Positions 48,075 to 52,694 of a stretch of DNA of 64,000 bases are shown in pieces. The DNA is taken from NCBI RefSeq assembly GCF_006210265.1, contig NZ_VCNC01000001.1, positions 754,843-818,842 of the forward strand, written 5' to 3'. Below the pieces are notes generated by a model. That model was not told the origin of the DNA and made no database searches. It saw only the letters and a program-made list of their open reading frames with translations. The stretch is from Desulfovibrio sp. UCD-KL4C (lineage in GTDB: Bacteria > Desulfobacterota > Desulfovibrionia > Desulfovibrionales > Desulfovibrionaceae). Position numbers and translations under genes: made by a program. The first letter of the stretch is position 1. Every line of letters begins with the position of its first letter.

Positions 48075-50144
48075 TTACTGAAGTTTAACACGGTCCATCA
48101 TTTCTTGGAGTGACTTTGCTTGAAGGTCTAAATCTCTTACAGCCATTTCAAGCTGTCTGGAACTTTCGAGATTTTGCTCTCCAGCCTGCTTAATGCTGCC
48201 GAGGGCGACTGCAACTTGATCAAGTCCGGCTAGTTGCTCCTGGCTTGAAGCAGCAATCTGTGCAGAGGACTGAGCAGACTGATTGATAACCGAGCTCAAG
48301 CTGAGAATGGATTCTCCCGTTTGAGATGACATATTTGCGCCTACTTCAACAGCCTTTCCGCCTTCTTCAGTAATCATAACGGCAGAACTTGTTGCCTTTT
48401 GAATATCGGCAAGTATAGATTGGATCTGAGCTACAGATTGTTTAGATTGATCAGAAAGGTTTCTAATTTCGCGAGCGACTACTGTGAATCCTTTTCCTTC
48501 TTCCCCCGCTTTAGAAGCTTCAATTGAAGCATTCACGGCGAGGATATTGGACTGGTCTGCAAGGTCATTAACTACATAGATAATGTCACCTATGTGTTGA
48601 GACTGCTCGGCAAGCTTTACAATGCTTGTAGCAATGGTATCCATTTGAAGCTTAATGTTCATCATGCCGGATGCAGCGTCTTCAGAAGCTTTTTGTCCCT
48701 GCTGAGAGGTTCTAATCGCTTTGCGTGCAACCTCAGCCACTTGCCTTGATTTCTCATTTGAAAGGTGGGCTGTTTGTTTAACTTCTTCAACTGTTGCATT
48801 TGTTTCAGCTACTGCGCTTGCTGTTTCGGCAGCACTTGCAGTCAGTTCTGCTGAAGCTGCTGAAATTTGGCTGAGAGAAGAAGATAGAATGCTGACAGTA
48901 TCATGAATTTTTCTGTTATCGTCTTTGAGATTTTCAACCATACGTGCAAGGGCTTTTCCTATGGTGTCAATATCTGAACGCGGCGTTACTTCCAAGGTCA
49001 GATCAGAGTCTGCAATTCTTTCCATGGCTACAGTCATTGTTTTCAGTGAAGTAGTCATTTTGTTAAAAGCTTTTGCCAGCAGACCAAGTTCATCCTTTCT
49101 GTTGGTTCCATCAATTTCTTCCGGCATGTCGCCTTCAGCAATTTTATATGCTGCATCAACAACTTTTTTTAGTGGAATCGTTATGTTTCGTCCTATTATT
49201 ATCGCAGATATACCACCGAGCAAAACTGCACATAATCCTGCAAAATAGACGTTTGTCGTGGCGCGATTGTTCTTATTTTGAAGCTCCGGTCCAAGTTTGT
49301 CCTGATCAATAATTACGGAGTCTTTGGCCTGCTTGATAGCGGTATCCATTTTAGGTCCGATCACATTCAACTCGGTCTCAATTAAATTATTTCGCTTTTC
49401 AGTAAGAGAGGTGAATTGTGTTAAAATTTGAACATATGATTTGCTGGTTTGAATTATTTCTCTCAGTTTTTTGCGATTCTTAGCCGATAAAATTTGTGAT
49501 AATTTTGTTGTGACAATATTAAGCTCAGCCATTTCTTTGAGTGATCTTTTAATATGTGTGTTATCACTGTCACCTAAGAATTTGGCTGCATAAAGACGCC
49601 CTAAAATAAGGTGCCTTATTCCTTTGGCACACCAGAAGAGAGCTTCTGAATTTTTTTCTGATTTACCCAGAGTATTAATGAGTTGCCCAAAATTATCTTC
49701 CATTTGATTCCCTTTAGGAATCAAATCTTTTTCTGCTAATGTAGAACGAAGAGACTGAGACCTTGCAACCTCAGTAAAACTTTCTTCGTATACATCGATC
49801 ATTTGTTTGACGTCTAAAAGATTAGATATTCTATCTTGATCCAAAAAACTTTTTTCAGCTGTAACAATGAGCTTGAGCAGTTTCTGAATACTGGCAAAAT
49901 GCTTTGCTTTATACTCATCTTTATCAGTAATGATATAATCCTTAACATTGGTAGTTGCTTCAAGCAGGGTCACTTGAATCTGACCGATCAAATTGGATTC
50001 TCGCGCGTAGTTTCGGTAAGTAGTGAATCCTTCGGATGAAGTGTTTAGAGCTTTAAGCGATTCTATGCTTACAAGCCCAAATAAGATGGCTACAATAACA
50101 AAACTGCAGAATATTTTTTGGCCTACTGTTAACCGTTTAAGCAT
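48075..50144 (-). CDS. Methyl-accepting chemotaxis protein
   Basis: A 689-residue chemoreceptor: a membrane helix (~11-29), a large helical periplasmic domain (~30-300, helical-bundle/HBM type), a second helix (~305-328), HAMP (~329-382) with a second HAMP-like segment, and a signalling domain with tip NILAVNASIEASKAGEEGKG. The tip differs from the usual [15 protein letters not shown] of the other two receptors here, so it may belong to a different CheA/CheW partner class. The ligand is unknown. AAAGGA lies about eleven bases before the ATG. Confidence 0.92.
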   Translation of the reverse strand: MLKRLTVGQKIFCSFVIVAILFGLVSIESLKALNTSSEGFTTYRNYARESNLIGQIQVTLLEATTNVKDYIITDKDEYKAKHFASIQKLLKLIVTAEKSFLDQDRISNLLDVKQMIDVYEESFTEVARSQSLRSTLAEKDLIPKGNQMEDNFGQLINTLGKSEKNSEALFWCAKGIRHLILGRLYAAKFLGDSDNTHIKRSLKEMAELNIVTTKLSQILSAKNRKKLREIIQTSKSYVQILTQFTSLTEKRNNLIETELNVIGPKMDTAIKQAKDSVIIDQDKLGPELQNKNNRATTNVYFAGLCAVLLGGISAIIIGRNITIPLKKVVDAAYKIAEGDMPEEIDGTNRKDELGLLAKAFNKMTTSLKTMTVAMERIADSDLTLEVTPRSDIDTIGKALARMVENLKDDNRKIHDTVSILSSSLSQISAASAELTASAAETASAVAETNATVEEVKQTAHLSNEKSRQVAEVARKAIRTSQQGQKASEDAASGMMNIKLQMDTIATSIVKLAEQSQHIGDIIYVVNDLADQSNILAVNASIEASKAGEEGKGFTVVAREIRNLSDQSKQSVAQIQSILADIQKATSSAVMITEEGGKAVEVGANMSSQTGESILSLSSVINQSAQSSAQIAASSQEQLAGLDQVAVALGSIKQAGEQNLESSRQLEMAVRDLDLQAKSLQEMMDRVKLQ

Positions 50145-50301: not shown

Positions 50302-50616
50302 TTATTCGTAATTGCCATCGCAGTATTCATTGCATTTGTCTCCGACAGTTTCAAAAATAGGAAGACAGTTTTGCAATCCCATCTGATTGTCATATTGTTT
50401 CTGAACGTCTTCACATCCAGCTCTACATTCTGCTGCGGAAGAGTATTCTTTCGAAATTACGACTAAGTATCGCTTGCAAAGCTCTCCTTGCACGTCACAA
50501 CTTGATTCCGTGGATAATGAGCGGCAATAGGAGCTTATATCCTGCATGGTCGGAGCATGAGCAGAGCATCCGGATAACAAACCTAAAATACATAAAGTCA
50601 AAATTGTTCTGTTCAT
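50302..50616 (-). CDS. Small Cys-rich lipoprotein
   Basis: A 104-residue protein with a clear lipobox (LLSGC). Nine further cysteines are spread over the mature part (YCRSL, SCDVQ, LCKRY, ECRAGC, NCLP, KCNEYC), so it is probably disulfide-rich in the periplasm. I recognise no family. It starts 12 bases after the HisC-like gene, with AAAGGA overlapping that stop codon, so the two are co-transcribed. Confidence 0.72.
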   Translation of the reverse strand: MNRTILTLCILGLLSGCSAHAPTMQDISSYCRSLSTESSCDVQGELCKRYLVVISKEYSSAAECRAGCEDVQKQYDNQMGLQNCLPIFETVGDKCNEYCDGNYE

Positions 50617-50628
50617 CTGCCATATCCT

Positions 50629-52230
50629 TTATTCAGCTAAAATATTACGCAGTGCGGCAAGGAACTTGCGATTGCGGGAGTTGTTACCGATTGAAACTGT
50701 GAGCAGGTCTTTAAGCCCGAATTCATTTAACAGCTTAATTTTGAATCCGTGATCCAGCATTTTATCATGCAATTCTTTCGCTGGAATGGGCCCGCTGAAC
50801 ATTACAAAGTTGCTTTGACTTGGGTAGACAGAACATCCTAGTTCCTGAAGGCCTTTTTGTACGCGTTCTCTACCTTTTATAATCAGAGCAATTGTTGAGT
50901 AATAAAATTCGCTATGGTTAAGAGCAGCAATACCTGCGCCGAGGTTTAATGGACTGATTGACAGTGGAAGTCTTGCATCTTCGATATGCTGAGCTCTTTC
51001 AGAGCTCATAAGTGCGTATCCCAGTCTGACTCCTTGCATACCGAATGACCATGAAAAGCTGCGTAGAATAATTAAATTGGGTATTTTACTTAAAAATGGC
51101 AGCATAGAGTAATCGTCTTCCGGCCATGCAAATTCTACTGATCTTTCATCGATTATCAGCAAAGTTCGTTCAGGGAGAAGTGTTGCCATAGTTGCAAGCT
51201 CTTCAGCCTGCATCCCATATCCTGAGGGAATATCGGGATTTGTTATGATTACCGCCGCAGTATTTTTGTTTGCAGTAGTAACGATTTGGTCAAGTGGCGG
51301 AGAAAAATTGCGTGATCGTGGTAGGCGAAGCAATTCGACCCCGCAAAGTGCTGCGACCCTGCTATATTCAGGAAGTCCGAATTCATAGCTGAGTACATGG
51401 TCAATGCCGGGTGTTACTGTGAGGCGAAGAGCCAGATCGAGAATCTCGGCAGCTCCGTTCGCAACAATTATATTGTCTTCGGAAACGTCATGACGCTGTA
51501 CCAGACCGAATTTAAGACTGTCGTCCATATTGTTTTCAAAGCCGCAACAATTATTAGCCATATTCATGATTGTATTGGAAACAGCTTTTGAAACTCCAAG
51601 TGGATTAGTATTAGATGAAAGGTCTATTTCTTTTTTAATATTAAACTTTTTTTTGAAATCATGGGCTGAAATATAAGATGATTTATTATGAATTGGTGGC
51701 TCTACATAGCTGGTTTCAGGTTTTTTTTCTTTCGCTTCTTCCACTTTTTCCACTTCTTCCGTTTGAGTAACAGTTGTAGGCTTTTCTTTTACTGGAGTCG
51801 GATTAGGTTTCTGCGGGGCAGCTGCTTGGTTCGATGCTATTGCCTCTTTTACCGATTCCTCCAGCGGAATTGTTATAGCCCGAATGTCGTAATCAGAACT
51901 TAGTGTTGTGTTACTGACCAGCTCGGTTAATTTGTCATAAATATCAATAATTATGTTTAAAAGGTCATTCGTAAACGGAATTTCATTTTTAAAAATACGG
52001 TCAAGAACAGACCCTATATTACTTGCAATGAGACTTATATTATCAAGATCAAGTAACGCGGCACTTTCTTTTAAAGAAAGTGTAATTGCGTAGATTTTTG
52101 CAACAGATGTTCCTGCTGGGGAATGTATTTTTTCAAGGTTTATAAGCTCTGCTTCAATTTGTTCTAGCTTTTCAAGTGATTGCTCTACAAACCGCTGTAA
52201 CGTAGGATCATTTTCAATTTCTTCAGTCAT
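50629..52230 (-). CDS. HisC-like aminotransferase pseudoenzyme with Hpt-like N-terminus
   Basis: A 533-residue protein. Residues ~13-115 resemble a CheA-P1/Hpt four-helix domain, but the phospho-His position holds Leu (SLKESAALL in place of HTLKGSA). A Pro/Glu/Lys-rich linker (~135-185) follows. Residues ~190-533 are a fold-type I aminotransferase of HisC type (NPLGVS, ANGAAEI, TNPDIPSG, IIDERSVEFAW). Where HisC has the PLP lysine (F-S-K-x-x-G) the sequence reads FSWSFG, Trp394, confirmed in the DNA (tgg at 51051-51049). The C-terminal substrate Arg is also missing (LTVSIGN). It should not be an active aminotransferase. The start is ATG 52230 behind GGAGG; the GTG at 52242 overlaps that site. 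Confidence 0.8.
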   Translation of the reverse strand: MTEEIENDPTLQRFVEQSLEKLEQIEAELINLEKIHSPAGTSVAKIYAITLSLKESAALLDLDNISLIASNIGSVLDRIFKNEIPFTNDLLNIIIDIYDKLTELVSNTTLSSDYDIRAITIPLEESVKEAIASNQAAAPQKPNPTPVKEKPTTVTQTEEVEKVEEAKEKKPETSYVEPPIHNKSSYISAHDFKKKFNIKKEIDLSSNTNPLGVSKAVSNTIMNMANNCCGFENNMDDSLKFGLVQRHDVSEDNIIVANGAAEILDLALRLTVTPGIDHVLSYEFGLPEYSRVAALCGVELLRLPRSRNFSPPLDQIVTTANKNTAAVIITNPDIPSGYGMQAEELATMATLLPERTLLIIDERSVEFAWPEDDYSMLPFLSKIPNLIILRSFSWSFGMQGVRLGYALMSSERAQHIEDARLPLSISPLNLGAGIAALNHSEFYYSTIALIIKGRERVQKGLQELGCSVYPSQSNFVMFSGPIPAKELHDKMLDHGFKIKLLNEFGLKDLLTVSIGNNSRNRKFLAALRNILAE

Positions 52231-52242
52231 AGAAACCTCCAC

Positions 52243-52694
52243 TTTGTGTAGTATATTTTTTAAAATTTGAGCCGAACAGAAGCTGTGTAGCTCTGTATTT
52301 TAAAAAAAAACAATTATAAAAGAAGATATGTATCAAGCATAATATATTAGGGTTTACATTTATAAATAAATTATATCTTTTTTATAACTCGAATTAAGAA
52401 AAAGTAAACATGATTTAACTGAATTAAACTTAGATCCTGTATGCTTAATATTCATAATTAATCTCTCTACGGTGCTAAAATGAATAATTAAAAGGCTTCA
52501 AGCCTATCGGTTTTTTGCTAAAGTTTACCTCAAGGAGAGGGTAATGCACAATATCTTTTAGTGTTTCAGGTTGCGCTTTTTTCAAGGGTGTTTCATATTA
52601 ATTTATCATGTACATACGGTGTTGCCGTAGTACTTATTAAATACGTGTCGAGTATAGTACCGTTTAAATTAATTTAATTCCATAAGGAGTTGAA
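52243..52694. other. Intergenic region with candidate operator
   Basis: A 450-base AT-rich region between the divergent HisC-like and ferritin-like genes. Near the ferritin-like gene, an inverted repeat (GTAC-A-TACGG, spacer TGTTG, CCGTA-GTAC; 52610-52633) is a possible operator. A GC-containing segment at 52491-52510 (AAGGCTTCAAGCCT) is a small hairpin. An AAGGAG at 52532 precedes only a 5-codon frame. No gene recognised. Confidence 0.45.

Follow-up and report, generated by a model that had tools for sequence, protein, structure and literature searches.

A conserved double pseudoenzyme joining a CheA-P1-like bundle without phospho-histidine to a HisC-like domain without its PLP lysine

The window, by which we mean the whole 64,000-nucleotide stretch of Desulfovibrio sp. 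UCD-KL4C analysed here (contig NZ_VCNC01000001.1, positions 754,843 to 818,842), contains a gene for a protein that fuses a CheA-P1-like bundle to a domain resembling histidinol-phosphate aminotransferase (HisC), with the catalytic residues of both domains gone. Our searches returned 17 genomes belonging to the genus (G000–G016), and each of them has a full-length orthologue. In the window's genus and in a second genus of the family, represented by genome G179, the residues of both catalytic sites have been replaced, though not by the same ones: Trp and mostly hydrophobic residues stand there in the first, Arg and Asp in the second. Two-component pseudoenzymes and PLP pseudoenzymes are each already known; one protein joining both was not found in the literature searched. 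That such a fusion is fixed across a genus beside a chemoreceptor suggests a recycling of dead enzymes into a signalling adaptor, and with this protein one could ask which functions a P1 domain can still serve once its histidine is gone, and by what route an enzyme of biosynthesis comes to work in signalling.

Coordinates are collected in Table 1. A sequence-only reading of this DNA had described the same boundaries, an intact frame and a good ribosome-binding site, and our re-reading agrees with it (533 aa, GGAGG). No signal peptide was seen by eye on the pseudoenzyme. By one motif-to-motif measure, the linker between its two domains ranges from 47 to 79 aa across the 17 sequences. Between the pseudoenzyme gene and a divergent rubrerythrin-like gene lies an inverted repeat, AGGCTTCAAGCCT, that resembles a terminator and has a T-rich tail (window 52493–52505).

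Table 1. Features of the pseudoenzyme gene and its downstream neighbours, in window coordinates
Feature	Position	Strand	Basis
Double pseudoenzyme gene, 533 aa (dead P1/Hpt, linker, dead HisC)	50629..52230	-	ORF, ATG at 52230 and stop ending at 50629; orthologues in 17/17 genus genomes
Ribosome-binding site GGAGG	52236..52240	-	Sequence reading; five bases ahead of the pseudoenzyme ATG
CheA-P1-like five-helix bundle without phospho-His, residues 9-134	51829..52206	-	Profile, model, Foldseek, His replacement
Linker, residues 136-195	51646..51825	-	Length varies among orthologues
HisC-like fold-type-I aminotransferase domain, residues 196-533	50632..51645	-	TIGR01141, PF00155
Trp394 (codon TGG), PLP-lysine site	51049..51051	-	W in 17/17 vs K in 32/32 HisCs
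Ile334, site of PLP-ring Asn	51229..51231	-	N in 32/32 HisCs
Thr511, site of substrate-carboxylate Arg	50698..50700	-	R in 31/32 HisCs
Cys-rich lipoprotein, 104 aa, lipobox LLSGC (by eye)	50302..50616	-	12 bases downstream of pseudoenzyme; 17/17
Methyl-accepting chemotaxis protein (HAMP + MCPsignal), 689 aa, third gene	48075..50144	-	Pfam; place and strand kept in 17/17

The HisC-like domain and its lost residues

By sequence, the C-terminal part shares the whole fold-type-I domain of HisC. TIGR01141 (HisC), scored on the window and G179 proteins, gave 209.5 bits (E 6.3e-62) and 225.5 bits, respectively, both below the cut-off of 276.55. PF00155 (class I/II aminotransferase) matched the window protein at 122.9 bits (E 2.3e-35; cut-off 19.7) and was found in all 17 orthologues. 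Identity to the same cell's own HisC is 35%. Unlike HisC, the pseudoenzyme lacks the PLP lysine, the ring Asn and the carboxylate Arg, carries a P1-like fusion and falls below the family cut-off.

The Lys of the F-S-K motif is replaced by Trp in 17 of 17 orthologues, with TGG as the codon in each, and is present in 32 of 32 aligned HisCs; these were chosen as best BLAST matches, one per genome from 32 genomes, 17 of them of the same genus. Another 13 HisC-like sequences beyond the 32 also carry the Lys. Trp394 (tgg) had been read from the window alone as the replacement of the PLP lysine in a pseudoenzyme derived from HisC, with the proviso that homologues might keep Lys; every orthologue has Trp and the G179 protein has Arg, and the family matches bear out the derivation.

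Other catalytic and pocket positions have changed as well. The ring Asn of NPxNPTG is lost in 17/17 (Ile in 11, Val in three, Met in two, Glu in one), as is the Tyr of the RYP motif (Phe in 13, Ser in two, Leu and Met in one each), and the DEAY Tyr is lost in 14 (Ser in 11, Ala in two, Cys in one) and retained in three. The Ala preceding the DEAY Tyr has become Arg in 15 and Lys in two. Loss of the C-terminal substrate Arg, also claimed from the window, extends to all orthologues, with Thr in 15 and Lys in two, against Arg in 31 of 32 HisCs; the remaining HisC sequence ends with its contig. The column equivalent to R322 is less clear (Arg in nine, Lys in six, Ser in two). The Asp184 equivalent is retained in 17/17 and the R222 equivalent in 15/17. 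N157 (ring Asn), Y187, Y55, R322 and R335 (the C-terminal carboxylate Arg) follow E. coli HisC numbering, Y55 being the Tyr lent across the HisC dimer. In the orthologues L022 and L026 (G011 and G015), the PLP-phosphate Arg is lost too (GVSLGY and GVGLGY), and Lys stands at the carboxylate Arg site.

Across the alignment of the 17 pseudoenzymes with 31 HisCs, one incomplete row of the 32 having been dropped, 20 residues invariant in the HisCs are missing from all pseudoenzymes, 22 columns are newly invariant in the pseudoenzymes with a residue never seen in the HisCs, and 29 are invariant and identical in both. A full-length AlphaFold model built from three sequences reached a pLDDT of 43.2, too poor for inspection of the pocket.

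The N-terminal bundle of the CheA-P1 type

Sequence profile, predicted fold and residue comparison all identify the N-terminus as an Hpt bundle of the CheA-P1 type that lacks the phospho-His. Pfam Hpt scored 12.4 bits on the window protein, under its cut-off of 24.6, and matched 10 of the 17 orthologues at E up to 0.1. Searched against the PDB, a 17-sequence profile returned CheA P1 first (2ld6, E 2.8e-7; 1tqg, 3.4e-7), with the repeat protein BRIC1 next and close behind (4.4e-7). Five models of residues 1–135 were obtained, the best with a pLDDT of 81.8 and the other four ranging from 70.0 to 45.1. In a Foldseek search with the best model, all four matches with E up to 0.001 were CheA P1, the top one being 3kyi (TM 0.81/0.85); designed four-helix bundles appeared from rank 10 on.

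For the residue comparison, five His-bearing P1/Hpt domains from this genome and two relatives served as reference. The phospho-His site holds Leu in seven orthologues, Val in seven, and Ile, Phe and Thr in one each. The His67 equivalent is Ser in five, Gly in six and Asp in six, the Glu70 equivalent is Gly in 16 and Ala in one, and the Lys51 equivalent is retained in 17/17 (Salmonella CheA numbering). An Hpt-like N-terminus without its phospho-His had been proposed for the window protein; the replacement runs through the genus, and profile and Foldseek both point to CheA P1. The bundle has the five-helix fold of CheA P1, to which its best PDB matches belong, and differs from it in lacking the phospho-His, His67 and Glu70 equivalents and in standing outside any kinase.

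Hpt proteins without the His occur in plants as pseudo-HPts, AHP6 for example. Among bacterial Hpt domains the His is missing in 90 of 10,312 (PMC12632262). Like these, the window protein has an Hpt domain without His; no aminotransferase-fold fusion is mentioned for them in the material searched. A search of titles and abstract beginnings, mostly without subscription papers, found no report of a fusion between a His-less Hpt and a dead aminotransferase.

The genome also carries two CheA-like ORFs with a His-bearing P1, named by eye. A stand-alone Hpt of 133–135 aa with its His intact was present in three of three genus genomes examined (L111:3860-4267 in G000:C3, L117 and L118), directly upstream of genes that by eye resemble DAHP synthase/chorismate mutase and dehydroquinate synthase. 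Outside the genus, a relative of this Hpt that is likewise stand-alone (L112:4492-4887, G020:C5) follows an ORF that by eye is CheV-like.

Spread, origin and gene neighbourhood

When 348 genomes of the order were searched with a profile, the matches listed included full-length members in 18, namely the 17 genomes of the window's genus together with G179; at most four candidates were scored per genome, so the search may have passed over divergent members. The matches listed when the G179 protein was searched against 288 genomes of the family give the same picture. In a phylum sample of 297 genomes, a full-length match occurred in the window's own genome only, G179 being absent from the matches listed. 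Loci L009 and L010 are not counted as extra species. A restriction to one genus was overturned by G179, whose 515-aa protein is the same fusion with a dead P1. A single-sequence search had matched it over 202–530 only; a profile including the G179 protein aligned it over 2–532. Two further sets of candidates were set aside: both HisC-like genes of G029 keep the Lys, and ORFs of G168 and G151 (matches starting at 135 and 139) are HisCs with Lys in which no P1 domain was seen.

In the G179 protein, Arg occupies the Lys site, Glu replaces the ring Asn and Leu stands in for Tyr187, whereas the RYP-type Tyr and both C-terminal arginines (R322 and R335 equivalents) are retained. The P1-like domain of this protein, which scores 19.9 bits with Pfam Hpt (cut-off 24.6), carries Asp in place of the phospho-His and Ala in place of Lys51, with the Glu70 equivalent retained. 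With the PLP lysine gone and substrate residues kept, this protein may represent an earlier stage. A second HisC-like gene of G179 keeps its Lys.

In the tree, the 17 pseudoenzymes form one clade (support 100/100) on a stem of 1.78, and G179 joins this Trp clade with 93/83 support, long branches meeting there. For a single origin of G179 and the Trp clade, homology of the N-terminal domains (hhalign probability 95.3%, E 2.2e-8) is a better argument than the tree. A recent duplication of hisC within the genus is disfavoured (p-AU 0.025), but a wider group that takes in four HisCs of the family is not rejected (p-AU 0.28), again with long branches in play.

Pseudoenzyme, lipoprotein and methyl-accepting chemotaxis protein (MCP) genes follow one another in this order on one strand in 17 of 17 genus genomes, a count that includes G005, where the lipoprotein is overlapped by another ORF. 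The order survives in G015 though flgE and hslUV no longer adjoin, and in G002 though the Liv genes are absent from the flank. Nevertheless, the linkage of the trio is weaker evidence than it appears, because most genomes of the genus have kept the outer genes (Liv operon, flgE, hslUV) in place as well. Nine columns of the lipoprotein alignment consist of Cys throughout, and the MCPs of the genus combine a variable sensor region with a conserved signalling region. The 12-base gap, shared strand and constant order make co-transcription of pseudoenzyme and lipoprotein plausible. The MCP gene, preceded by a gap of 157 bases in the window and of about 100–165 in the other genomes, may be transcribed separately, given this 5′ gap of its own. 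A consensus scan saw no terminator-like site on the minus strand between the three genes of the window, a promoter scan returned 9 sites against 8.7 by chance, and Rfam gave no match.

The sequence-only reading had linked the protein to chemotaxis just as an idea for a pull-down. In every genus genome the MCP gene lies two places downstream of the pseudoenzyme gene, and this conserved linkage to a chemotaxis gene makes the proposed connection stronger. Immediately downstream of the G179 fusion gene, on the same strand, is a hybrid histidine kinase gene (GAF-PAS-HisKA-HATPase-REC); no MCP was seen beside the fusion gene in the ORF list. Relatives of the lipoprotein occur in five genomes from other genera of the family and relatives of the MCP sensor region in three, none with a full-length pseudoenzyme among the matches listed. 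Stretches around lipoprotein relatives, one from each of four other-genus genomes, had no pseudoenzyme or MCP match at E 1e-4. In G025, a genome of the same family, three Cys-rich lipoprotein relatives follow one another (C3:160070-161262), and the surrounding 15 kb is without a pseudoenzyme or MCP match.

Proposed function and alternatives

We favour, at about even confidence, a role for the pseudoenzyme as a non-catalytic adaptor in (chemosensory) signalling, cytoplasmic as far as can be read from its sequence. The P1-like bundle would dock as a pseudo-substrate either on the kinase domain (P4) of CheA or on a receiver of the CheY type, and the HisC-fold domain, probably dimeric, would provide a protein- or ligand-binding platform in which Trp394 and Arg363 might fill the vacant cofactor site. 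The neighbouring MCP/lipoprotein sensor could thereby gain a dedicated means of modifying kinase output. For the G179 genus, the product of the adjacent hybrid histidine kinase gene would be the likely partner. There, with Lys changed to Arg and the substrate arginines still present, the HisC-fold domain may continue to bind, though not to convert, a phosphorylated amino compound. Somewhat more tentatively, we suggest that these proteins could form a new class of chemosensory adaptor, in which a dead CheA-P1 domain docks as a pseudo-substrate on the kinase or on the response regulator, with a dead aminotransferase as input or scaffold. Against the adaptor role, the bundle keeps Lys51 but has lost the other P1 active-site residues, and docking on P4 would be a guess; moreover, repeat and designed helical bundles score near CheA P1, and four of the five models are of lower confidence.

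A different use of the same architecture would be as a ligand sensor, an option that the sequence-only reading had raised beside that of a scaffold; the HisC-fold domain would bind a metabolite (histidinol phosphate, an aromatic amino acid or a phosphate ester) with no catalysis and report it through the P1-like bundle. Conservation of D361 (17/17), S393 (16/17, Thr in one) and R402 (15/17) is in keeping with such binding, as is the retention in G179 of both arginines and the RYP-type Tyr. The window's genus, however, has lost the carboxylate Arg, ring Asn and RYP Tyr throughout and the ring Tyr in 14, and Arg363 and Trp394 may occupy the site. We consider this reading unlikely.

Less probable again is a regulatory or stabilising pseudo-subunit of true HisC or another aminotransferase, a dead and live heterodimer after the manner of LCB1. 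That subunit of serine palmitoyltransferase is likewise evolutionarily kept without its PLP lysine and pairs with LCB2 (PMC3794620). All 17 genus genomes also encode a Lys-bearing HisC as a potential partner, and the 29 columns shared with HisCs would fit such a pairing. LCB1, however, works in an enzyme complex alongside a paralogue that is still live, whereas the window protein carries a second dead domain, one of signalling type. The Tyr lent to the partner's active site is lost in every pseudoenzyme of the genus, although kept in G179, hisC lies on another contig (G000:C8, the pseudoenzyme gene being on C1), and the P1 bundle and MCP neighbour would be left unexplained.

Catalysis by a PLP enzyme using another base or another lysine seems to us highly improbable. 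The fold is retained, and a base other than Lys has precedent among enzymes that share it, GDP-4-keto-6-deoxymannose-3-dehydratase using His. An aldimine is nonetheless impossible with Trp, and the ring and carboxylate residues are lost as described above. A substitute aldimine Lys is also unlikely, since the domain has a single invariant Lys, K382, at a column where 20 of 32 HisCs have Glu.

Selection was estimated from ten pairs, whole-protein dS being absent for three through saturation. In the three least saturated pairs (dS up to ~0.75), dN/dS was 0.10, 0.12 and 0.12 for the whole pseudoenzyme; its P1 part gave 0.07, 0.13 and 0.07, its HisC part 0.08, 0.03 and 0.11, and true HisC 0.08, 0.09 and 0.06. 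Both domains are under purifying selection, so neither decay nor sequencing error accounts for the gene. A decaying gene or an error, which two degraded active sites within one protein might suggest, retains next to no probability and is refuted by the 17 orthologues, with open frames and dN/dS of about 0.1; a recent mutation is likewise ruled out by Trp in 17 separate genomes, and the frame first described as intact proves to be a selected one.
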